Virus record (IMG/VR): IMGVR_UViG_3300045241_000079
Location: 1-38,887 of that record
Length of the DNA: 38,887 nucleotides
Strand: one strand, 5' to 3'
From: a virus
Shown here in pieces: positions 13,828 through 38,887 of this stretch (positions within the stretch are counted from its first letter, which is position 1; each line of letters begins with the position of its first letter). The translations under genes and the position numbers were made by a program. The notes beneath the pieces are model-generated. The model ran no database searches. It saw only the letters and a list, made by a program, of their open reading frames with translations, and was not told the origin of the DNA.

Positions 13828-14144
13828 CTTGCCCCCGTAACGCCAGCCTCGCCGAGCCCATGCGCCCGACAGTACTGCGCCGCAAACCGCCAACCATTCT
13901 TCTCTCCGCAGCCCGGCGCAACGCAGATGCCCTCGGGCTTGGTTTCGACCTCATCGGGTGAGGTGAATTCGTCGACCAGCGGAGGCGGTGTGGTGTCGAA
14001 TAGCTCGAGCTCGGTGACGGCAACGAGCGCGCCGGTCGGAACGCTAACCACCGGCACATCGTGCACCGATTCGTCCGAGAATCGCATTTTGCGAATGCCG
14101 TTCGCTCGCATGTAGACCAGCAGGTCGTCCACGTAAGCCGTCAC
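13824..14144 (-). CDS. Unknown small protein with C-terminal Cys/His cluster
   Basis: 106 residues from GTG 14144 (GTGA overlap with the terminase stop). A compact alpha/beta N-terminus is followed by an acidic Pro-rich linker. The C-terminal cluster 'CVAPGCGEKNGWRFAAQYC' with a His three residues later could bind zinc. Position between terminase and portal suggests a packaging or head role. Function unknown. Confidence 0.65.
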   Translation of the reverse strand: MTAYVDDLLVYMRANGIRKMRFSDESVHDVPVVSVPTGALVAVTELELFDTTPPPLVDEFTSPDEVETKPEGICVAPGCGEKNGWRFAAQYCRAHGLGEAGVTGAR

Positions 14145-15673
14145 AGCGCGTACCCCGTCAATCTGCTCGCCGCGCGCTCGTCGCCGCCGAAAGCCGCATT
14201 CATCGCCAGCATATCGCAAATCCTTTGCTCATCGTCGCGTTCATCCAGAAGCTCAACCTCGGGCTGCTGCGGCAAGCACTGCGCCGCCAACAACATCGCC
14301 GCCCCGTAGTCGCAATGCCGCCCGTCCTGCGTCTTGATGAGCACGACCTGGCTACCACCCGCTGCCTTCGGGCGCGTGCGAATCGCGATCAAGTCGGTCT
14401 TCAGCTGCGACACGTTCGGCAGCGAGATATTCTGCTCCGCAATCAAGTTCCGCAGATTCATGATGGCGATGTCGTCGTTGCGATTCGCCAGCCGCAGCGT
14501 GAAGCTCACCTTCGTCAGCTCCGCGATGTCCACCAAGTGGTCGTAGCCGGCCTGGTCGGTCACGCACTCCTCGATGCCGAACTGCAGCAGCTCTTCGTCA
14601 ATTTCCGGCAACACGCGGGATGCTCTGAGGGGGGCAGAGCGGCTGCCAATCCACTCGCGGGCAACGCATACCTCGTAGCTACCGCGGGGTGTTGTTCCAA
14701 GTACCACCAAGGTCCAACCGTTGCCGCGTGTTGCCGGATCGATAATCGCCACGTAGCCCTGCCCATCGGTCTTGCCGAGGCGGGTGTCTTGGCGCGTGCA
14801 AGCCGTCACGTTCACGGAGGCTAGCAATGCGGAAATCGGGTCGGCGAACTTCGACATCACGTCGGCCTGGTAGGCGCGGTCGTCGGCTTTTTGAATCTTG
14901 GCGCAGTACTCGGGCGTGTAGAGCTCGGGGCGCAGCATCGGGCCGGTGGCGAGCATCACCACGAGGTCGGCGCCGGGCTTGCCGTGGCGCTCGGTGACGT
15001 AGTTGAACACGGGGCCGCGCGGCGCCCAGAGCGAGCCCACCAGGTCAATCTGCGCACCCTTGCGCATGCGGGCGCGGATGGCGGACAGCGCATCGTCGAG
15101 GTTCACGACGCCTTCGTCTTCACCCACCATGCGGGGCGCTTCGTCGGCGATGAACCCGAGCAGCCAGCGAGACACGAGCGTCTTGCCAGCGCGGGCGCCA
15201 GCTACCACCTTGATTTCGACAGGCCAGCCCGACTTGTTGCGGATGATGACCGAGTCGGACCCGGGTGGCTTCATGAGCAAGCGCGCGAGGGTTGGCGAGG
15301 CTTGGAGCGCACCTACGATTTTGCTGAAGGTCTCTCGGGCCTTATCGAGGTCCACCGACAAGATAGCAACACGAGGTATTTCTCCAGGGGCAAGGCCTGA
15401 GCAGTCACCCAGGTAGGCGTTACGCAGCGCCTTTGCAGCAACGATGGTCGACTTCCCGCAGCGCACAGCAGCGCCGAGTACGAGTACGTCCGGCGCTTCC
15501 GATGGAAGAGCAGCAACCGCGGCAGGTCCGCCAAGCATGGTAACAACGTCGGGGTCATGCGCGAGCTCTCCAATGGGTTCTCCGGTCATCACGCGGCAGA
15601 TCGCACGCTGCACTCGGCTGATTTCGGTCATGCCGAAGCCCGAGGGGCTGGAGATGAGGCCCTCCAGGTTCAT
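14141..15673 (-). CDS. terL: Terminase large subunit
   Basis: 510 residues from ATG 15673. This is the ATP-driven DNA packaging motor with a C-terminal RNase H-like nuclease that cuts the concatemer. Visible motifs: Walker A 'GAAVRCGKST' at about 67-76, Walker B 'LLGFIADEAPRM' at about 171-182, and a coupling region after 'DLVGSLWAP'. Nuclease acidic residues are Asp312 ('IIDPA'), Asp373 ('VTDQAGYD') and Asp455 ('HCDYGAA'). In-frame starts further upstream would overlap the 27-residue ORF and the next gene, so they are rejected. The start overlaps that small ORF's stop as ATGA. Confidence 0.93.
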   Translation of the reverse strand: MNLEGLISSPSGFGMTEISRVQRAICRVMTGEPIGELAHDPDVVTMLGGPAAVAALPSEAPDVLVLGAAVRCGKSTIVAAKALRNAYLGDCSGLAPGEIPRVAILSVDLDKARETFSKIVGALQASPTLARLLMKPPGSDSVIIRNKSGWPVEIKVVAGARAGKTLVSRWLLGFIADEAPRMVGEDEGVVNLDDALSAIRARMRKGAQIDLVGSLWAPRGPVFNYVTERHGKPGADLVVMLATGPMLRPELYTPEYCAKIQKADDRAYQADVMSKFADPISALLASVNVTACTRQDTRLGKTDGQGYVAIIDPATRGNGWTLVVLGTTPRGSYEVCVAREWIGSRSAPLRASRVLPEIDEELLQFGIEECVTDQAGYDHLVDIAELTKVSFTLRLANRNDDIAIMNLRNLIAEQNISLPNVSQLKTDLIAIRTRPKAAGGSQVVLIKTQDGRHCDYGAAMLLAAQCLPQQPEVELLDERDDEQRICDMLAMNAAFGGDERAASRLTGYAL

Positions 15674-15753
15674 CCGTGCTTCACGATCGCCCACACTGTC
15701 AGGGCAAACGCAAATCCTCCACCAACAATTGCGAACGACTGCGGCCAGGTCAA
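15670..15753 (-). CDS. 27-residue single-span membrane peptide
   Basis: The reading frame starts at TTG 15753, overlapping the upstream TGA as TTGA, and ends at TGA 15672-15670, overlapping the terminase ATG as ATGA. The peptide is one hydrophobic segment, 'FAIVGGGFAFALTVWAIV', flanked by a polar N-terminus and a C-terminal Lys-His-Gly. That is the charge pattern of a single-pass inner-membrane peptide. Podoviruses often carry holins or spanins beside the terminase, so a lysis accessory is possible. A simple coupling leader for terL is the alternative. It fills the only gap between two packaging genes exactly. Confidence 0.6.
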   Translation of the reverse strand: MTWPQSFAIVGGGFAFALTVWAIVKHG

Positions 15754-16379
15754 TTGGCCTTCTTCCCGCGCACAATCCCGAGCCGGTCGAGCCGCTCTTC
15801 CTCGAGGTATGCGTCGAGCCGCAGCCGAATCCCGCGCTCAATCATGTTCACGGTGTCTAGCCCGTCAAGCATCGCGTCGAAGGTGTCGCCGCGCATCCGC
15901 TGCTCGTCGTCCAAGTGCAGCTCGATGCTGTACTCCCGGTTGAGCAAGTCGACGCCGCGCAGCAACGCACCCTTGCCTTTTAGCTCAGGGAAGGCGCCAA
16001 CAATGCGGACGCCGATGTCAGCTATGCGCAAGTTCACGGCCTTGGCGAGCTCGCTCAGCTCACGCTCGCGCTTGCGGGCTTCGTCCTTGTCGAGTTCGTG
16101 GCCCTCGAAGAACTTGGAGGCGTAGCCCTCCACGAAATCGACCTGGCCCTCCAGCGTTTCGATTACGTTGTCGACGCCGGGCGTGCGCACGATGCCGGCG
16201 GTCGGGCCAAGCTCGCGCAGTGGCGGGTCTAGCAGTTCAGCCACATCGGACGAGACCACGCCGCCCTTGGTAAAGTCCACGCAGTCGCGCTCGTCACATG
16301 CGGGAGCATGGGCGATCGGGGGTGCATCAGCAAGCGCCGCTTTCAGCGCATCGGGGTGAGTATCGAAGATACTAGCCAC
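15750..16379 (-). CDS. Helical protein upstream of terminase (possible small terminase or packaging accessory)
   Basis: 209 residues from GTG 16379, overlapping the previous stop by eight bases. The N-terminal 60 residues look disordered. The middle has a charged helix ('LDKDEARKRERELSELAKA') and the C-terminus a second one ('MIERGIRLRLDAYLEEERLD'). There is no recognisable helix-turn-helix. Direct placement before terL is where a small terminase usually lies, but the gene at 17237-17593 resembles that family better. A packaging role for one or both is inferred. Confidence 0.6.
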   Translation of the reverse strand: MASIFDTHPDALKAALADAPPIAHAPACDERDCVDFTKGGVVSSDVAELLDPPLRELGPTAGIVRTPGVDNVIETLEGQVDFVEGYASKFFEGHELDKDEARKRERELSELAKAVNLRIADIGVRIVGAFPELKGKGALLRGVDLLNREYSIELHLDDEQRMRGDTFDAMLDGLDTVNMIERGIRLRLDAYLEEERLDRLGIVRGKKAN

Positions 16380-16596
16380 AAGGCACCTCGTCCACCGTCT
16401 CGATATCGCTCGCCAGAATCGCCCCGCGTGGTCCGCCAGGCTGAAGCTCAGCGTGTCCCGCCTCGATGAATTGCGAGCACCCGTCAGCGAATGTCACGAG
16501 TGCGGCGCGCACGGTGCTGTCACCTCGGCGCACGCACCACACGCGGTGGTCAGTCGCGCTCTTGTCGTACCAGATGAAACCTTCGCTGCGTTTCAC
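16372..16596 (-). CDS. Small protein, unknown
   Basis: 74 residues from GTG 16596, which overlaps the upstream stop as GTGA. The longer in-frame start would run deep into the neighbour and is rejected. It looks like a small alpha/beta fold ('GFIWYDKSATDHRVWCVRR', then an acidic C-terminus). No family recognised. Confidence 0.55.
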   Translation of the reverse strand: MKRSEGFIWYDKSATDHRVWCVRRGDSTVRAALVTFADGCSQFIEAGHAELQPGGPRGAILASDIETVDEVPCG

Positions 16597-19233: not shown

Positions 19234-19234
19234 T
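19208..19234 (-). repeat. Three tandem 9-bp units (ATGCAGGMG) after the helicase stop
   Basis: On the minus strand the units read ATGCAGGAG, ATGCAGGCG, ATGCAGGCG. The first ATG overlaps the helicase TGA as TGATG and opens a 15-codon ORF ending at 19187 that begins Met-Gln-Glu-Met-Gln-Ala-Met-Gln-Ala. It could be an iteron, slippage or a leader peptide. Confidence 0.6.
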
Positions 19235-20814
19235 CACTTGGACGCTACGACATGCCACAGCTTCATGTTTGCTCGACCGTCCGAGTGGATGAGTTTCTTA
19301 CCGCCAACGACCCGGCCGACGAAGTGCGCGAGCCGCTTGCTCATCCTTGCAGCGCTCGGGAGCATGTCGCCTTTTCCTGACAGCATAATAATGGCGTCAC
19401 GCAGTAGCGTTGCGATGTCTCCCTCCACGTCAGTCACGGCGCGAAGGATGTTCTGTGAGCTCACGCCGGTGCCCGTCGAGTCTAGGTGCCGCCAGTGCTG
19501 GATGAGGACCCCGAGCGCGTTGCCCTCGTCGTCGCTCCCTTGCGCCAGCCCCTCTCGGCCGATGGCCGGGTCTACCTCACCGGCCCACACCAGGGCGCTC
19601 CGCACCGTGTCCGACCAACCGTCGAAGCTTCCCCAGCTCTTGAGCTCGCCACGGGGCCGACCAGCGACCGCATGGGCCCTGAGCACGGTCAGTGCGGCGG
19701 CAACCATCCGGGGATGCTGGGAGAGCACATAGGGCTCGAGCGGGTGGTGCTTAAAGCCGGTGCGCTCCTCGGGTTTCTCCTCAGGTGACTCGATGCGAAT
19801 TGGTAGGATTCTGCGCACAGTGTCGCCAAGTATCTGCGGGTTGTTGCCTGTGGCGAACCAAGTGGCGAGGAGCGGGGCGGTCACCATCTCGGAGCGACCG
19901 AGGATGCGGTCCCGCCACTCGGTGCCGGTTAGGGCGGCGTCGAGCGCGGCGCCGCCGAGTGGGTGGTCCACGTTGTCCACCAACACCATGCGGTCGCCGG
20001 CCAATGCGATGCTGAGGATTCGTTTGCGCTCCTCGTCGTCGTCGCCCGCTTGGGTCATGCGGGCCATCCCGCGACCGGTTGCGGCCATGCTGATGGCGTC
20101 CGCGAGCAGGCTGCCGCCGGCGCCGCGCACGTTCTTGGTGATGAGGATGAGTGGGCTAGGACCCTGAAACGCAAATCGCGCTAGAGGGGTGAGAATCCCC
20201 GCTAAAACAGCAGAACGGTGGCACGGTTCAGCGAAAGGGAAATCAGCGAACGGCTCGAGCAGGAACGCAATCGCGAGCTTTGCGTGCTCGACGGTGGGCG
20301 CTGCCTTGATGGCAGGGAATTCCCGTGTAGGCTGATAGAGCACACCGGTTGCCGCGTCGTACCCTGGCATCGAAAGCACCGAGCCGTCTGCACGGAGCAC
20401 CGGGGTCTCGCTGAGCGCCTCGAGCGGGCGAATCCCGTCCCATTGCTTGCGCCCGGAGATTTGCTTGACCAGCCAATCGGGGACATGGCACGGCTTCGGG
20501 CCGTCTTCCGCTGTCATTCGGCAGAGGAACACGCGCTCACTGACCATCTCTCGCAGGCGCGCGCTTGCCACCTCGGAGATGTAGGACACGCCGTCTGGTC
20601 TGCTCACGTTCCCTTTGGCGCGCGCGTCGCGCACTGGCTGGACGAGCATGCCGCCGCGCTGATAGAGGCTCGGGTGCCCAGCGATGGCGGCAAGAGCTCC
20701 CGAGGTCACCTCGTGCTCCTTCGTCGTGACCAGGACCTGAGCTCGCTCGCCCGGCTCCTCAGGTGGAGGCTGGCGAGGCTTCTTGGCGTCACCGATCGGA
20801 GTGACGTTACTCAC
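19234..20814 (-). CDS. AAA+/SF3-like replicative helicase-type ATPase with altered Walker A
   Basis: 526 residues from GTG 20814 (GTGA overlap). The ATPase core is at about 200-345: P-loop position 'ITKNVRGAGGSLLAD' (225-239), Walker B 'MVLVDNVD' (276-283), sensor 'WFATGNN' (319-325) and the arginine pair 'DTVRRIL' (331-337). This is the pattern of helicase/primase-type ATPases in phages, plasmids and integrative elements. The usual P-loop lysine (GAGK) is Gly here, so ATP use may be altered or lost. No primase domain is visible in the N-terminal 190 residues. It is coupled to the upstream ribbon-helix-helix gene. It is the only replication-type protein seen. Confidence 0.7.
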   Translation of the reverse strand: MSNVTPIGDAKKPRQPPPEEPGERAQVLVTTKEHEVTSGALAAIAGHPSLYQRGGMLVQPVRDARAKGNVSRPDGVSYISEVASARLREMVSERVFLCRMTAEDGPKPCHVPDWLVKQISGRKQWDGIRPLEALSETPVLRADGSVLSMPGYDAATGVLYQPTREFPAIKAAPTVEHAKLAIAFLLEPFADFPFAEPCHRSAVLAGILTPLARFAFQGPSPLILITKNVRGAGGSLLADAISMAATGRGMARMTQAGDDDEERKRILSIALAGDRMVLVDNVDHPLGGAALDAALTGTEWRDRILGRSEMVTAPLLATWFATGNNPQILGDTVRRILPIRIESPEEKPEERTGFKHHPLEPYVLSQHPRMVAAALTVLRAHAVAGRPRGELKSWGSFDGWSDTVRSALVWAGEVDPAIGREGLAQGSDDEGNALGVLIQHWRHLDSTGTGVSSQNILRAVTDVEGDIATLLRDAIIMLSGKGDMLPSAARMSKRLAHFVGRVVGGKKLIHSDGRANMKLWHVVASK

Positions 20815-21251: not shown

Positions 21252-21404
21252 CTAGCGTGGCGAAGCGCTACACTCCGGCACGTAGCACTTGCCGCCATGG
21301 TTCCGTCGCAGCTTGCGCGCGCTGGTGAGCTCGCAGGTCTTGCCGTTCCAGCTGCGGATGCGCTTCCAGCGAGGCCACGCGCGCGGCTTGTAGGGGTCGG
21401 CCAT
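21252..21404 (-). CDS. Small basic protein with C-terminal Cys pair
   Basis: 50 residues from ATG 21404, overlapping the upstream stop as TGATG. It is Arg/Lys/Trp-rich ('YKPRAWPRWKRIRSWNGKT'), with three Cys, two of them close together near the end. The basic and aromatic composition suggests nucleic-acid binding, possibly with zinc. Function unknown. Confidence 0.55.
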   Translation of the reverse strand: MADPYKPRAWPRWKRIRSWNGKTCELTSARKLRRNHGGKCYVPECSASPR

Positions 21405-21913
21405 CACACCACCCGCTCATTGTCGAATCGACGCAGCTGCAGCTCCGGCGCGGGCTCGTCGGCGTACTCGAGCTTGCAACAAGGGCAGCGTGGGCCGGCG
21501 ACACGCCAGGGCATCGACCCGCAGTCATCGCACGGCTTCGGCCCCCGGATGTACTCGCGCTCGGCGGCAAGCGGGCGCATGCGGCGAGGGTTCGCCCCGC
21601 ATCCGTTGCGACTCGCGCGGTGACAGCTCCAGCATCGAGAGCGCAGGCCGCCTTCGGGGTGAGTCACGTCGATGCCACGCGGCGGGAAGTGCTCGGGGGT
21701 CGACGGGTACGAAGTCTCACACCCGGTGCAGCGCCTCGTCACGGCCTTCGCGCGGCGCACCTTGTTGATGCACACGCGGCAGTTCGGCTTCCACTCTGAC
21801 GGCCGCGAGCCTTCGCCCTTGTAGCTCTCGAAAAACCCGCGAGTCAGCGGCTTCGATTCGTGGCACTCGGGGCATTCGCGGAACTGAATCGGGTGCTCTA
21901 TTTTGGCGCTCAT
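21404..21913 (-). CDS. Protein with three four-Cys zinc sites
   Basis: 169 residues. The Cys pairs are 14/17 with 45/48, 62/65 with 94/97, and 128/131 with 143/146, giving three treble-clef or ribbon-like zinc sites. The linkers 'GSRPSEWKPNCRVC' and 'EGGLRSRCWSC' resemble zinc modules found beside HNH nucleases, but I see no HNH catalytic histidines in order. It is coupled ATGA to its upstream neighbour. It is probably a nucleic-acid or protein-binding early factor. Confidence 0.65.
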   Translation of the reverse strand: MSAKIEHPIQFRECPECHESKPLTRGFFESYKGEGSRPSEWKPNCRVCINKVRRAKAVTRRCTGCETSYPSTPEHFPPRGIDVTHPEGGLRSRCWSCHRASRNGCGANPRRMRPLAAEREYIRGPKPCDDCGSMPWRVAGPRCPCCKLEYADEPAPELQLRRFDNERVV

Positions 21914-22260
21914 TTTTCCATCACGCTCCTCGCTACACGCATCGCGCTCGCGCGCATTTCGTCCTGAACATCGCCATCACGAAACCTCTTCCCCGCGGCG
22001 ACAACATCGGGGAGCAGCAATAAGCACAAGCCGTAGCTGTAGGCGGCCGCATACGATAGCGACCGGATGAAGACTTCCGTTGCGTCGGCGAGCTTGTCGG
22101 CCTTGTCGCGGTCGTTGTCGGGCATTGGCAGCTCGTCGATGAACGTCGCCATGTCGGTCGCGCAGTGCTTGGTCATGACGTAGGAGACGGCGCGCGCGGT
22201 GCGCTCGGCTAGGTCTGCGGCTGGTGAGACTTGCGCTACCGCTTCGGCTCGCTCGCCCAT
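21910..22260 (-). CDS. Helical early protein, unknown
   Basis: 116 residues from ATG 22260, preceded by AAGGAAGG, a strong ribosome site. The start overlaps the nuclease gene by 25 bases. It is helical throughout, with an apolar stretch 'YAAAYSYGLCLLLLPDVVAA' about 70 residues in that may be a buried helix or a weak membrane segment. Function unknown. Confidence 0.6.
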   Translation of the reverse strand: MGERAEAVAQVSPAADLAERTARAVSYVMTKHCATDMATFIDELPMPDNDRDKADKLADATEVFIRSLSYAAAYSYGLCLLLLPDVVAAGKRFRDGDVQDEMRASAMRVARSVMEK

Positions 22261-22742
22261 TGCGCCGCCTTCCTTTTAGCTCTCTCCGCTTCCTTCGCCG
22301 CCAGCTCGAGCCGCTTGTGCTCGCGCAGTAAGATGCGCTCGACCAGCAGCGCCGCGCCGGACGCATCCTCCGCGAACCAGACCGGGATGTTCCAATCGCT
22401 CGCAATCTTGATGAGCGTGCCGACTACCGACATCGGGTTGATGTTGCTGCGCGCGATGCCCAGCGAAACCTCCGACCAGGTGCCCTCGATCACGAGATGG
22501 CGAACAGGGAAAGGTCGCATGCGCTCCATCTGCTCGATGAACCTTTCGCGGTCGATGCCGCAGCATGCCTGAATTTCGCCGTTGCGTTTGCGTTCGATGG
22601 TGACGCTGTCGCTGGCGCCGCGGATTGAGTAGTCGCCGACCGGGAGCAGCACGCGCTCGCTGGTGACGGCTGGAGAGAACTTGAGCGGGGCCTGCTCGCG
22701 CTGGTCCCAGATGATGCATGGTAGCGGGGGCGGGGGTTTCAC
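22236..22742 (-). CDS. ERCC4-type nuclease
   Basis: 168 residues from GTG 22742 (GTGA overlap). The ERCC4/XPF nuclease core is visible: 'IIWDQREQ' (Asp13, Arg15, Glu16), 'LPVGDYSIRG' (Asp37), and 'VTIERK' with Glu50, Arg51 and Lys52, the metal-binding signature. Then come an Arg-Phe pair in 'DRERFIEQMERM' and a 'LVIEG' strand. The usual helix-hairpin-helix domain is absent; the C-terminus is a basic helix. Such stand-alone forms occur in phages and could process recombination or replication forks, perhaps with the annealing protein on the other strand. Confidence 0.85.
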   Translation of the reverse strand: MKPPPPLPCIIWDQREQAPLKFSPAVTSERVLLPVGDYSIRGASDSVTIERKRNGEIQACCGIDRERFIEQMERMRPFPVRHLVIEGTWSEVSLGIARSNINPMSVVGTLIKIASDWNIPVWFAEDASGAALLVERILLREHKRLELAAKEAERAKRKAAQWASEPKR

Positions 22743-22936
22743 TTGTCCGCTCTCTCCGGCAGCAAGACGAACGCCTTGTGCCACTCCTCAGCAGTCCGCC
22801 AAACTCCGTCACCATCCCTCACCGACCCATCGGGGTTTACCCGGCCTGCTTCGACGATCGCCGATTCTGGCATCGGTTCGATCCCGATGATCCAGCGGTA
22901 CGCCCACCGCGAGCCGGGCACAGGAAGGTCAGGCAT
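22739..22936 (-). CDS. Small protein, unknown
   Basis: 65 residues from ATG 22936, with a GAGGGGAAGG ribosome site and an eight-base overlap with the gene before. It is mostly beta ('GSRWAYRWIIGIEPMPESA'), then an acidic turn and an amphipathic end. No motif recognised. It is coupled to the ERCC4-type nuclease gene. Confidence 0.6.
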   Translation of the reverse strand: MPDLPVPGSRWAYRWIIGIEPMPESAIVEAGRVNPDGSVRDGDGVWRTAEEWHKAFVLLPERADK

Positions 22937-28375: not shown

Positions 28376-28494
28376 TTCGCTTTGCAATCGTATGGGAACA
28401 TCCGCTGCATGCGCCTTACGCTGTAAAAGAGCGCTACCACGTAGCTGCTGGCATCGGCCCGTTTCGCCTGTCAATCCACTGGAGCACACGATGA
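28372..28494 (+). CDS. 40-residue protein, unknown
   Basis: It starts at ATG 28372 (ATGA overlap) and ends at the TGA that overlaps the annealing protein's ATG. The peptide is mixed, with several His and aromatic residues ('MIRFAIVWEHPLHAPYAVKE'). It may act mainly to couple translation of the next gene. Confidence 0.45.
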   Translation: MIRFAIVWEHPLHAPYAVKERYHVAAGIGPFRLSIHWSTR

Positions 28495-29384
28495 CCGAAT
28501 CGAACCTAGTCCGCCTGCCGACCGCCGAAATCGAGCAAGGCGCAATCGAGCAAGTCCTCGGTTACGGCGACCTGACTAAGCTAACCCCGACGCAGCGCAC
28601 GGCTTACTACACGCGCGTGTGCGAAAGCCTCGGGCTGAACCCGCTCACCCGCCCGTTCGAGTTCATCAACCTCAGCGGCAAGCTCGTGTTCTACGCGCGC
28701 CGCGATTGCACCGACCAGCTGCGCAAGATTCACGCGGTCAGCATCACCATCGTGTCCCGTGAGCGCGTTGACGACTGCTACGTGGTGACTGCGCGCGCGA
28801 GCTTCCCGGACGGGCGAACAGACGAAAGCATCGGGGCGGTCCCGCTCGGCGCGAACGTCAAGGGCGAGGCGCTAGCGAATGCGCTGATGAAGGCCGAGAC
28901 GAAGGCCAAGCGCAGGGTCACTCTTGCTATTTGTGGCCTCTCCGTGCTCGACGAGACCGAGCTTGACGGCGCGCGCGACCGCGAACGACAGGACACGATT
29001 CCGGTAGAGCGCCAGCTGGGCGCCATCAACCCGCACGACCAGGAGGGCGACAGCGCGAACGGCGAGCCCGAGGTTTACGAGAGGCTGCGGGGGGAATTGG
29101 CAGCGGTCGACATATCACTCGAGGCCTGCGACACGTACCAGAAGCTGCTCACACTGCGCGCGGTTGTCGGCAACAAGGACGGGCGTCAGCCGACGCCTTG
29201 GCAGCAGCAATACAAGGCCGCGCAGGACTCGATGAATGGCGCACAGCGCAAGGAGATTGGCCGGCTGTGGAATCGGTGCGACCGGCAGCTCGCGAAGCTG
29301 GAAGAGAAGTTGAAGCCGGATGCGGCGGAGAGCTTTATCGACCCGCCGGATGATGACCCAGACAACTACGACAGGAACGCATAA
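28491..29384 (+). CDS. RecT/Red-beta-like single-strand annealing protein
   Basis: 297 residues from ATG 28491 (ATGA overlap; upstream in-frame ATG rejected). The N-terminal half follows the annealing-protein pattern: 'LGLNPLTRPFEFINL' (47-61), 'YARRDCTDQLRKI' (68-80), then 'LMKAETKAKRRVTLAICGLS' (132-151), where Red-beta and RecT have a similar helix before a small domain. The C-terminus is acidic with a charged helix. It probably pairs complementary single strands in phage recombination. I know related sequences mostly as unannotated phage and plasmid proteins. The call is by pattern only. Confidence 0.5.
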   Translation: MTESNLVRLPTAEIEQGAIEQVLGYGDLTKLTPTQRTAYYTRVCESLGLNPLTRPFEFINLSGKLVFYARRDCTDQLRKIHAVSITIVSRERVDDCYVVTARASFPDGRTDESIGAVPLGANVKGEALANALMKAETKAKRRVTLAICGLSVLDETELDGARDRERQDTIPVERQLGAINPHDQEGDSANGEPEVYERLRGELAAVDISLEACDTYQKLLTLRAVVGNKDGRQPTPWQQQYKAAQDSMNGAQRKEIGRLWNRCDRQLAKLEEKLKPDAAESFIDPPDDDPDNYDRNA

Positions 29385-31833: not shown

Positions 31834-33312
31834 TCAGGGCAATGTGAATGCGCCGTCAAAGAGCGCGTACGCGAACGGCGAATGGTGCGTGCCGTCGACC
31901 GTGTACTTCAGCGGCGTGATTCCATCGACCTTCCACTTGCCCGTCGCCCCGAGTTCGGTGATTGCCGAGCAATCCAGGTAGCCATCGTACCCGAGCGCGT
32001 TCGCGCGGACTGCTCCGTTGAATGAAACGCGGACAGCCTCCTGCGCGCGCACCGTTTGGTTGTACGTCGTAACCCATTGGTCGATGCTTGTCGTCTCTGG
32101 GTCGAGCGTCGTCACGATGTAACGCTTGGTCGGGTACAGGGCTCGAATCGTGCCCAGGTTGGTTTGCAGCGCGGCGCTTGTCAGGCCAGAGACGAACACA
32201 TCGTTCACGCCGAGCGCGTTCACCACGTCGGAGCAATACTGAATCAGGTCGTCGCGCAGGGCGTGCGCCGCCAGAAAGGACGTGGTTGTCTTTCCGCTGA
32301 CACCCAGATTGGTGTACCCGTAGGATTGCCCGATTCCGTGCGCGACCGTCCCATAGTTGCCGAGTACCGTGCTGAAGTTGTCGCTCGCGCCGGCCTGCCT
32401 ACTATCGCCGATGATGGCGACCGAGCGCTTTGTCGTGAGCCCGATGATAGAACACGGCACGGCAAGCCCGTTGATGTTTGAGACGACCGTTCCACCCATC
32501 GTCTGGTCGGTCCCGGGGAACGTCTGCGCCTCACCCAGCGCAAAGTTTGGCTTAGCAACGGACGATCCGAGGTAGCTCGCGGTGCCAGTTTGGAAAAATC
32601 GCACCCAAAAAAGCGCGCCATTCGGGATGCCGCCAGCGATCGTAACGGTGTCGCAGTAGATGGTTGTTTTCGTCGGCGCGGTGCCGGTCACGAGCCCGCC
32701 GAATAGGCATTGCGTGAACACGCCGGCCGGGTACTCGACGGAGGCAGTGATGGTCATAATCGAAGCCGGGTCTTGCTCATCGCCGACCCAATTCGCCCAC
32801 GCAATTTTCATCGAAGTGATGTTGTCGCGGGCATACGTAGCGAAGCGCTGCATCAGTGGCGACGCTGTCCCGATGATGGTGTCAGGGATTCCGCACCGAG
32901 TAGCCACCTGTCCCATGTAGGGCACGCTGTAGTTAGAAAAATACTTGTAGATGTCCGCCTGTGTCGGATTGAACGAGTCCTTGCTAAATGACCCGAGCAG
33001 CGACCGCTTCATCGCGATGTACTGCGCTGTGGTTCCCATCGTCGCCCCGGCGGCGCCGTCTGCCGCAAGCTGCGTCCAAAAGCTGATTACGTCGGCATCG
33101 GTCGGATTGCTGAAGTTGCCCGATAGGATTCCGCGAGCAATCTCGTCGGCCAAGAACTGGCGTGACCCAAGCGCTCCGGCGGCAGCGGAGTCGACTAGAA
33201 AGCGCTTGAAAAAGGTCAGAACATCAGCATCGGTCGGGTTCGCCGAGTCGACGGAGAGCGCGCCCCGGAAGAGGTCACGCATCGTGCGGTATTGTGCGGT
33301 GGTGAGGGCCAT
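31834..33312 (-). CDS. Tail spike/fibre-type protein with SGNH hydrolase domain
   Basis: 492 residues from ATG 33312 (AAGGAAAAAG upstream). Residues 3-134 hold three copies of a 40-45-residue helical unit containing 'NPTDADV' or a variant. A beta-rich middle follows, then an SGNH/GDSL esterase domain: block I 'IIGDSRQAG' (Ser304), block II Gly337, block III 'LGVNDVF' (Asn370) and block V 'DGTHHS' (Asp473, His476). It is probably an esterase acting on acetylated surface polysaccharide. It follows a second SGNH protein directly; both likely act in host recognition. Confidence 0.75.
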   Translation of the reverse strand: MALTTAQYRTMRDLFRGALSVDSANPTDADVLTFFKRFLVDSAAAGALGSRQFLADEIARGILSGNFSNPTDADVISFWTQLAADGAAGATMGTTAQYIAMKRSLLGSFSKDSFNPTQADIYKYFSNYSVPYMGQVATRCGIPDTIIGTASPLMQRFATYARDNITSMKIAWANWVGDEQDPASIMTITASVEYPAGVFTQCLFGGLVTGTAPTKTTIYCDTVTIAGGIPNGALFWVRFFQTGTASYLGSSVAKPNFALGEAQTFPGTDQTMGGTVVSNINGLAVPCSIIGLTTKRSVAIIGDSRQAGASDNFSTVLGNYGTVAHGIGQSYGYTNLGVSGKTTTSFLAAHALRDDLIQYCSDVVNALGVNDVFVSGLTSAALQTNLGTIRALYPTKRYIVTTLDPETTSIDQWVTTYNQTVRAQEAVRVSFNGAVRANALGYDGYLDCSAITELGATGKWKVDGITPLKYTVDGTHHSPFAYALFDGAFTLP

Positions 33313-33321
33313 CTTTTTCCT

Positions 33322-34581
33322 TCAGCGGCGAGAACGGTCGCGGCCGCGGTCAACTGCGGGCTGGGTCGACGAGCCGCCGCCACCCGAGAATGTCGCGTAA
33401 AACGAGGTAATACCCGTGTTGATGTTGCCGGCCATGTGCGCGTAGCCAGCCGGCGTCAGGTGCTTCGTGTCGGCGTAGATTGCCGGGTTGCTGAGCTGGT
33501 AGTAAGCGTCGGTCCCGTTGTCGATGGCGCCGTCGCCGAGCGTGAGCGATGTCGTTCGGTACGTCGCGAGCTCAATCAGCGGACCTGCCGCGATGCTGGC
33601 TGGGATGGGCGAGAGCATGATAACGGTCCACCCGTACGCCTGTTGCGTATTGATGACCGACTGCGCCTCGGCGAGCGTTGACGCCGCGGACTGCCCGAGG
33701 TCGATGTCATTCAGCCCGGTGTTGTCGATAGCGATGTTGCACTTCGCCGGGTCCCAGTGGCCAACAAGGTCAGTGGATGCGCGCGTGAGCGTGTCGGACC
33801 ACTGGGCGCCGTCCTGGCCCGCATTCGTCACCGTGTCGGTCGGGCGCAGGCCGGCAAGGGTGAGCGGGTAGCTGCTCGTCGGGAAGCCTGGGAAGCCGTG
33901 GGTGATTGAATCGCCGCTGCACACGAGATTCGCAGCTAGGGTCCCTGGTACCGCTGGCTGCTGGATGCTCGCCGTGGTGGCGATGGCGCCGCCTGCCACG
34001 AACGCCGCCAGCGCGTTGCCGGATTGGTCCGTGAGGTTCGTGTGCACCAGCAACGGCCAGTAGCCGCTCGCGCCCGTGGGCGTCTTAGTGCGCGGGCCGC
34101 CAGCCCAAGGGGCCTGCGAAATCTGCGCGGCTGCTATAATCTGCGGGTCGGTCAGCGCGGTGTTGAAGTAGGTGATGCCCTCGGCTGAGCCGTTGAACAG
34201 GAACGAGCCACCCGCGTTGAAGCTCTTCACGCAGAGCGGCGCACTGAAGCTGGTCACGTTGCCAGCCGCTGCCGCGCTGAAGATGACAGCTACGCCGCCG
34301 CCAGCTCGAGGCGAGCCGATGAATCCGCGCATCACGCCGGCCGCGCTGATGACGACTCCGCCGAAAAACGTCTGCCCGTTTTGGATGGTCGGCGCGACGT
34401 TGGTTGTCGACACGTCGCCGCCGATTTCGACCCCGGTTCCGTTCCAGTACAGATACCAGCGCCCGCCGTTCTCCATGCCGAGGACGACGCCGTTACCCGC
34501 CGTCTGGTTGAAGTAGCCCATCACGGTGATACCGCGTGAAGCGATGGTCACCCCGCTGAGCTGCGCGCCGGTTACAGCCAC
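33322..34581 (-). CDS. LamG-like plus SGNH hydrolase tail protein
   Basis: 419 residues from GTG 34581 (TAGTG overlap). Residues 1-160 look like a concanavalin/LamG jelly-roll ('GRWYLYWNGTGVEIGG', 'FNTALTDPQIIAAAQI'). An SGNH domain then shows 'CSGDSITHG' (Ser225), 'NAGQDGAQW' (Gly255), 'NTGLNDIDLG' (Asn291) and 'DTKHLT' (Asp371, His374). The C-terminus is a flexible Gly/Ser then basic tail. It probably binds and deacetylates surface sugar during adsorption. It could alternatively be a lipase-like virion enzyme. Confidence 0.75.
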   Translation of the reverse strand: MAVTGAQLSGVTIASRGITVMGYFNQTAGNGVVLGMENGGRWYLYWNGTGVEIGGDVSTTNVAPTIQNGQTFFGGVVISAAGVMRGFIGSPRAGGGVAVIFSAAAAGNVTSFSAPLCVKSFNAGGSFLFNGSAEGITYFNTALTDPQIIAAAQISQAPWAGGPRTKTPTGASGYWPLLVHTNLTDQSGNALAAFVAGGAIATTASIQQPAVPGTLAANLVCSGDSITHGFPGFPTSSYPLTLAGLRPTDTVTNAGQDGAQWSDTLTRASTDLVGHWDPAKCNIAIDNTGLNDIDLGQSAASTLAEAQSVINTQQAYGWTVIMLSPIPASIAAGPLIELATYRTTSLTLGDGAIDNGTDAYYQLSNPAIYADTKHLTPAGYAHMAGNINTGITSFYATFSGGGGSSTQPAVDRGRDRSRR

Positions 34582-37875: not shown

Positions 37876-38887
37876 TACAGGCCCGGCTTGAAGGTGGTGG
37901 ACTTGGGCGCGGCGTAGGGCTGCGTCGCATCGGGGTCAGCGTAGGTATTGTCCCGCACGACTTGCTGCATGTTGCCCTTGACCGCCCCGAGCGTAGCGCG
38001 CAAGCCGGCGCCGCCGTCCGAAAAAATCGCGTTCTTGTCGGCGAGCGTCTGCTGCGCGCGTTCCGCGTCCGCCTTCGTGACGACGCCCTGGAACTCCTGA
38101 GCTGAAATGGCGGTGAGCGCGCGGTCCTGAAGCGAGTCGATTTCCTTGCGCGTGTTCAGGTCGACGACTCCACCGGTGCCGACCTTTTGGAGAATCTGCT
38201 CCATGAGGCCAACCGCGTTCTCACCGGCGGTGAGCGACTTTTGCAGCTCGGTAGCCTTCGGTGCGCTGTTAGTCCAGACCACTTGGCCATTGCCGAGCCG
38301 AATCTGGCGTTCGCGCGCGTCCTTCGCCGCTTGCGGGTTGGTGTCCTTACCGGTGATGGTGTTGAGCGCCTCTTTCGCCGCCGCGCCGCGCTTGAGTCGC
38401 GCCAGCAGGTCATTCCCGCCGCCCCCGCCACCCTGCATCGTGAGCTTGGCTTCCACGTCCGCGCCCGCCTGCGCCTGCGCCTGCGCCTGCAGTTGCTTGC
38501 GCTGGAGTTGGGACGCCTGCAGTTCGAGCTGCGCCGCCGCGAGCGCGTCCTGCGTGCCGACCTGCTCAGCGTGGGTCTTGATGAGCGAGTCCTTCGCCGC
38601 GAGCGCTTGCAGCTGCAAATTGGCCTGAGCTAGCTCGGGGGACCCGTAGATGTCGATGGCATCCTTGTAGGCGTTGTTCGAGATAGACGCCTTGTCCTTG
38701 GCCACGTTGTACTGCTGGATTTGGTCGTTCATCCAGCGGTCAATCGTCTTGTCGAGCACTGCCGCCGCCATGTTATCGGTCCGGCCGATGGTCGCGCCCC
38801 AGGCGCCGAGCGACATCGCGATCGCAGCCCCAACCTGCGCAGCGACGCCCTTGTCCTTCCAGAATTGGTCGACCGTCTTGGGCTTCG
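37875..38887 (-). CDS. Internal virion protein, C-terminal part (continues from 938-1)
   Basis: This is the 3' part of the 607-residue gene described at 1-938, ending at TAA 37877-37875. The apparent ATG at 38816 is an internal Met, since the frame is open through the join. The segment is strongly helical and rich in Gln and Ala ('QAQAQAGADVEAKLTMQGG', Gly-rich hinge, then basic helices), with no membrane span. Long helices and a Gly hinge fit a T7 gp15-like core or ejection protein. The TAA overlaps the ATG of the next large gene. Confidence 0.8.
   Translation of the reverse strand, partial: KPKTVDQFWKDKGVAAQVGAAIAMSLGAWGATIGRTDNMAAAVLDKTIDRWMNDQIQQYNVAKDKASISNNAYKDAIDIYGSPELAQANLQLQALAAKDSLIKTHAEQVGTQDALAAAQLELQASQLQRKQLQAQAQAQAGADVEAKLTMQGGGGGGNDLLARLKRGAAAKEALNTITGKDTNPQAAKDARERQIRLGNGQVVWTNSAPKATELQKSLTAGENAVGLMEQILQKVGTGGVVDLNTRKEIDSLQDRALTAISAQEFQGVVTKADAERAQQTLADKNAIFSDGGAGLRATLGAVKGNMQQVVRDNTYADPDATQPYAAPKSTTFKPGL
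38761..38887. repeat. Right copy of the 127-bp terminal direct repeat
   Basis: Identical to 1-127. See that entry for the reading as a circular-assembly overlap. Confidence 0.95.

Follow-up and report, generated by a model that had tools for sequence, protein, structure and literature searches.

A D5/SF3-like phage helicase in which the Walker A lysine appears to have moved seven residues upstream

The putative replication helicase of a 38,887-base virus contig (the window, meaning the whole stretch of DNA that was analyzed) has Gly at the position of the Walker A lysine, residue 234 (codon GGC), and the final residue of strand β-1, seven positions upstream, is a lysine (Lys227). Across 256 distinct homologous cores, Lys227 and residue 234 covary perfectly. 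We put the probability at about 85% that this exchange is a functional compensation, with the P-loop lysine relocated in a working replicative helicase; we infer the detailed contact between Lys227 and phosphate with less certainty. The key lysine appears to have been moved, not lost, several times independently. A preliminary description of this DNA had the open reading frame, the strand and the glycine right. Its statement that the lysine is missing holds for the canonical site and fails just before the loop, where Lys227 had been overlooked. It had named a lysine lying elsewhere as the finding that would overturn it, and since Lys227 covaries with residue 234, that is essentially what was found.

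The assignment as a helicase-type ATPase, already made in the preliminary description, was borne out by profile, model and fold. Residues 36–522 (the ATPase domain and its flanks) matched the PHROG 29234 profile at E=1.5e-71, with further profile matches to PHROG 10537 and PHROG 19930. Profile searches against Pfam and NCBIfam returned no family, and a PDB sequence search returned nothing relevant. PHROG 29234 and 10537 are listed as unknown function and PHROG 19930 as DNA polymerase/primase; they correspond to the ATPase domain found at the C-terminus of TOPRIM- or AEP-type phage primase-helicases, with members in phiCbK-like jumbo phages and Pas55 of phiAsp2. An AlphaFold2 model built on a 65-sequence alignment had a pLDDT of 93.7 and a pTM of 0.87. 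Using Foldseek, the nearest solved folds were the SaPI helicase PriRep1 (7pds, E=2.6e-8), the SaPI5 Rep primase-helicase (7ola), the C-terminal helicase region of NrS-1 (6k9e) and D5-type SF3 helicases such as those of large DNA viruses, all at a probability of 1.00. Whole-length TM-scores against these folds were modest (0.30–0.44), and sequence identity was about 10%, with no match in the PDB at the sequence level. The nearest predicted viral folds, in BFVD, were phage primase-helicases, for example Pas55. The SaPI, NrS-1 and large-DNA-virus D5 helicases use the canonical loop lysine. The window protein is a D5/SF3-like AAA+ primase-helicase ATPase, and a variant rather than a standard member, since it does not match the canonical Walker A signature GxxxxGK[ST].

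Homology to the three PHROG families extends over nearly the whole protein, and Walker B, motif C and the arginines are shared. Both lysine arrangements are found within these families, and the window protein is strongly homologous to canonical-lysine members across the whole domain. Most relatives in PHROG 29234 are fused to a primase (zinc-ribbon plus TOPRIM, or AEP), whereas the window protein stands alone: its reading frame begins just before the helicase part, so the chain has no N-terminal primase. Fusion is usual but not universal in the family, as two other homologues (L001 and L005) are also standalone. The primase-helicases of Caulobacter jumbo phages (L016 275-3979 and related entries) carry the deposited name 'PE-PGRS family protein', which looks like a misannotation. 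A distant homologue with 26% identity and a canonical loop lysine (ITATTMGSGKS) is encoded at 621-2237 of the Streptomyces plasmid pWTY27, which by position corresponds to repA. Deletion of repA abolishes replication of this plasmid, and RepA binds an iteron at the origin (PMC3583192). From the fold, the primase fusion partners and this RepA relative, we infer that the window protein is the putative replication initiator-helicase of the phage, which would hydrolyze ATP, form hexamers, unwind DNA and initiate replication.

The active-site residues and neighboring elements are listed in Table 1. Gly234 sits in LITKNVRGAGGSLLAD. The Walker B motif, sensor Asn and arginine pair, described earlier as intact, are indeed present as Asp280-Asn281, Asn324 and Arg334-Arg335, and are conserved throughout the family. 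Walker B ends in D-N instead of D-E or D-D, as it does in more than 90% of the family. The Ser/Thr that follows the Walker A lysine normally coordinates Mg2+; at this position, residue 235, 28% of the canonical cores and 9% of the swapped ones have Gly. Five swapped planctomycete proteins (L201, L202, L215, L224 and L246, with GAGAGLL or SAGAGLL) have neither the loop Lys nor the Ser/Thr.

Table 1. Positions of the helicase gene, its predicted active-site elements and other genes in the window.
Feature	Position	Strand	Basis or conservation
D5/SF3-like AAA+ helicase gene, 526 aa	19234..20814	-	GTG start at 20814; PHROG 29234, AlphaFold2, PDB/BFVD fold matches
Strand β-1, residues 222-227	20134..20151	-	DSSP on AlphaFold2 model
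Lys227 (AAG), position -7 from canonical Walker A lysine	20134..20136	-	Lys in 75/75 swapped, 0/181 canonical cores
P-loop, residues 228-235 (NVRGAGGS)	20110..20133	-	Helix starts at 234 in AlphaFold2 model
Gly234 (GGC), Walker A lysine position	20113..20115	-	Ala/Gly in 75/75 swapped; Lys in 181/181 canonical
Glu261	20032..20034	-	Conserved 97-100% in both classes
Lys264	20023..20025	-	Conserved 98-100% in both classes
Walker B, residues 276-281, ending Asp280-Asn281	19972..19989	-	Conserved family-wide
Arg303	19906..19908	-	Conserved 99-100%
Motif C / sensor 1, residues 318-325 (TWFATGNN; Asn324)	19840..19863	-	Conserved family-wide
Arg334-Arg335, candidate arginine finger pair (putative role)	19810..19815	-	Conserved family-wide
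Large terminase subunit	14141-15841	-	PHROG 2, E=1.1e-9
Endonuclease-VII-like protein	21404-21913	-	Near helicase
ERCC4-type nuclease	22236-22784	-	Near helicase
Two adjacent proteins, weak GDSL-lipase-like domains	31834-33312, 33322-34581	-	Below Pfam cut-off

The homologous cores fall into two classes. In 181 of 256 the lysine is in the P-loop and position -7 is Ala, Gly, Ser or Cys; in the other 75, the window included, the lysine is at -7 and the loop position is Ala (92%) or Gly (8%). Not one of the 256 cores has both lysines or neither, and -7 and the loop lysine position are the only columns that separate the two classes. The same exclusivity was seen when the comparison was reduced to distinct 21-residue motif segments (n=198; 32 swapped vs. 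166 canonical). The closest homologues, at 37–45% identity, are canonical and have a small residue at -7 (DANVRGAGKG and DGNVRGVGKG); the matching stretch of the window protein is TKNVRGAGGS. Homologues without the loop lysine also carry Lys at -7, for example LIDKNVRGAGAG, LIEKPTPGTGAT, LLTKPAPGTGAS and FVSKPTPGTGGT. Overall, 71% of the cores have Lys at position 234, 27% have Ala and 2% have Gly, so Gly234 is neither the family norm, a possibility raised in the preliminary description, nor unique. The glycine is unusual in that the nearest relatives have Lys, and it has company in that 74 other cores have Ala or Gly.

One of the scans used a pattern containing the swapped lysine, which inflates the number of swapped cores. 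Such a bias cannot create the missing combinations of both lysines or neither, and the other scans and the genome searches were not selected on the motif. A whole-domain profile, which does not select for the motif, found a further 80 planctomycete regions; these yielded 66 canonical and two swapped segments and no exceptions. The helicase family was present in 121 of the 398 genomes searched (planctomycetes, the class of G001), sometimes in multiple copies. In a hold-out set of 12 plasmids, 11 were canonical and one was an exception, an archaeal protein from the Methanothrix soehngenii plasmid pGP6 (L317 3689-5671) that has neither lysine (LLMRQSAAGTGTTLL). The lysine-exchange rule therefore has at least one exception. 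In the pGP6 protein the loop position is occupied by Thr and -7 by Gln, and an Arg is found at -8; the other catalytic residues are intact, and this Arg may represent a third solution. A partial, near-identical second copy on pGP6 (15876-16544) has the same motif, and a scan for relatives of this exception found none.

Trees of 96 and 126 proteins were built with the motif columns left out, and long-branch rows (L025, L026, L006, L012 and others) were dropped from the second. About six changes of class, whether gains or reversals, are needed in both trees, at least four of them forced by supported branches. Both positions change together in all four supported independent pairs, a number too small for a formal sign test, and distinct clades all agree on the paired change. 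Within one planctomycete subclade the best tree requires five changes (4–5 over bootstraps, two of them forced). Here, swapped L202 (LFLIDKNVRGAGAGLL) and canonical L204 (LFLIDGNVRGVGKGLL) share 80% identity over the domain, and swapped L246 is likewise 80% identical to L204.

What might the upstream lysine do? In the proposed mechanism, Lys227, as the last residue of β-1, would reach over the P-loop to the β- and γ-phosphates of ATP and take over from the canonical Walker A lysine, whose site would be left vacant by Gly234 (Ala in most swapped relatives). Canonical relatives show the mirror image, with Lys in the P-loop and a tiny side chain at -7. The location of Lys227 at the end of β-1, directly ahead of the loop, together with the strict rule that -7 is tiny wherever the loop has its lysine, suggests competition between the two side chains for a single site near the phosphates. 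The window protein would then be a working ATPase, a D5/SF3-like AAA+ initiator or replicative helicase. A further reading, which we consider unlikely, is that K-x6-[AG]-[STG] represents another way for a P-loop helicase family to bind phosphate, one that has evolved repeatedly and can revert, in which the lysine has a mechanistically different job, such as switching with Walker B or with the subunit interface, and in which the swap is driven by selection, for instance to evade an inhibitor directed at the canonical ATP site.

ATPases of this kind normally stop hydrolyzing ATP when the Walker A lysine is lost, a point in favor of the swapped proteins being degenerate or regulatory ATPases, that is, origin-binding or structural subunits that do not hydrolyze ATP. 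The window protein also lacks the primase domain that most of its relatives carry. Several observations make such degeneration improbable. The lysine is found at one specific upstream site in every swapped core, and all swapped members retain Asp280, Asn324, Arg303, Arg335, Lys264 and Glu261 (100% conservation). Pairwise dN/dS between swapped proteins is 0.04–0.29, which indicates purifying selection. The helicase gene is single-copy in the window genome and was found in one place per phage record, so a phage-encoded canonical partner subunit is unlikely; on the same ground we rejected the idea that the protein is the inactive partner of a canonical paralogue, since neither the window genome nor the phages with a single copy contain one. 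From these sequence comparisons, the swapped helicase is probably active.

Alternatively, Lys227 might be an extra trans-acting or regulatory lysine, with Lys264 or another residue doing the Walker A job. Signature lysines near the start of the loop do act in other ATPases, and Lys264 is conserved. Proteins with a signature lysine mostly retain the loop lysine as well, whereas here the two never coexist. Lys264 was rejected as a compensator, since canonical members conserve it just as well and it is thus no swap-specific substitute. We give this explanation little credence, and relocation of the P-loop lysine to position 227 remains our preferred reading. Although the record is derived from a metagenome, a sequencing or assembly error or a loop misalignment is so improbable that it can be set aside; the preliminary description had already called a single read error unlikely. 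GGC differs from both AAA and AAG at three positions, not at the two that it had counted, making an error even less likely, and 74 other distinct cores, many of them from isolate phages, share Ala or Gly with Lys at -7 and align through the loop without gaps.

Upstream lysines have been described in other P-loop families. The closest precedent for a relocated P-loop lysine is the terminase of phage lambda, whose large subunit gpA has an upstream lysine and no classical one (PMC9410871). As we read its motif (KSARVGYSK), Lys76 is at the start of the loop. The lambda protein is a packaging motor of another family and, in our alignment, its lysine is at -6, compared with -7 in the window helicase. 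A terminase of the gpA type was ruled out for the window protein by its PHROG and fold matches to primase-helicases and by the presence of a separate terminase gene. In HK97 TerL the classical K60 is accompanied by an upstream K57 that is essential and proposed to contact the γ-phosphate (PMC9410871); this terminase retains both lysines, whereas the window helicase has only the upstream one. In the deviant Walker A motif of ParA/MinD proteins (KGGxxK[ST]), the signature lysine is additional, and most members keep the loop lysine (PMC9178275). What they share with the window helicase is a lysine close to where the loop starts; membership of the ParA/MinD group was rejected, the loop lysine being absent and the upstream lysine in a different position. 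A looser analogy, in the protein-kinase fold, is provided by the WNK ('with no lysine') kinases, which keep their activity with the catalytic lysine on a neighboring strand. In the literature searched, mostly non-subscription, we found no report of a reciprocal lysine swap in helicases, or of a swap within a family with sister pairs. An upstream lysine that matters is thus already known from other P-loop families, and a repeated, reciprocal and exclusive swap within a helicase family is apparently new.

The window carries an exact 127-bp direct terminal repeat (1-127 = 38761-38887), and is therefore probably a complete genome of 38,760 bp, either circular or terminally redundant. No relatives of the known fused primases were found elsewhere in this apparently complete genome. 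The statement that the helicase is the only recognizable replication protein is thus close to true, with the qualification that other DNA-metabolism genes, the ERCC4-type nuclease and the endonuclease-VII-like protein, are present. A 330-residue open reading frame (28392-29384, + strand) without a Pfam match may encode a protein akin to the single-strand-annealing recombination proteins of phages. The two GDSL-lipase-like proteins may be enzymes of the tail or enzymes that bind receptors.

The Walker A lysine is regarded as nearly invariant and is the residue mutated for 'ATPase-dead' controls. Here, a family of replication helicases of phages and mobile elements appears to shift it seven residues upstream, and to have done so several times. 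If the swapped enzymes are active, motif scanners would overlook them or score them as dead, and sister pairs at about 80% identity would allow a direct test of how the position of the lysine affects ATP binding, hydrolysis and coupling.
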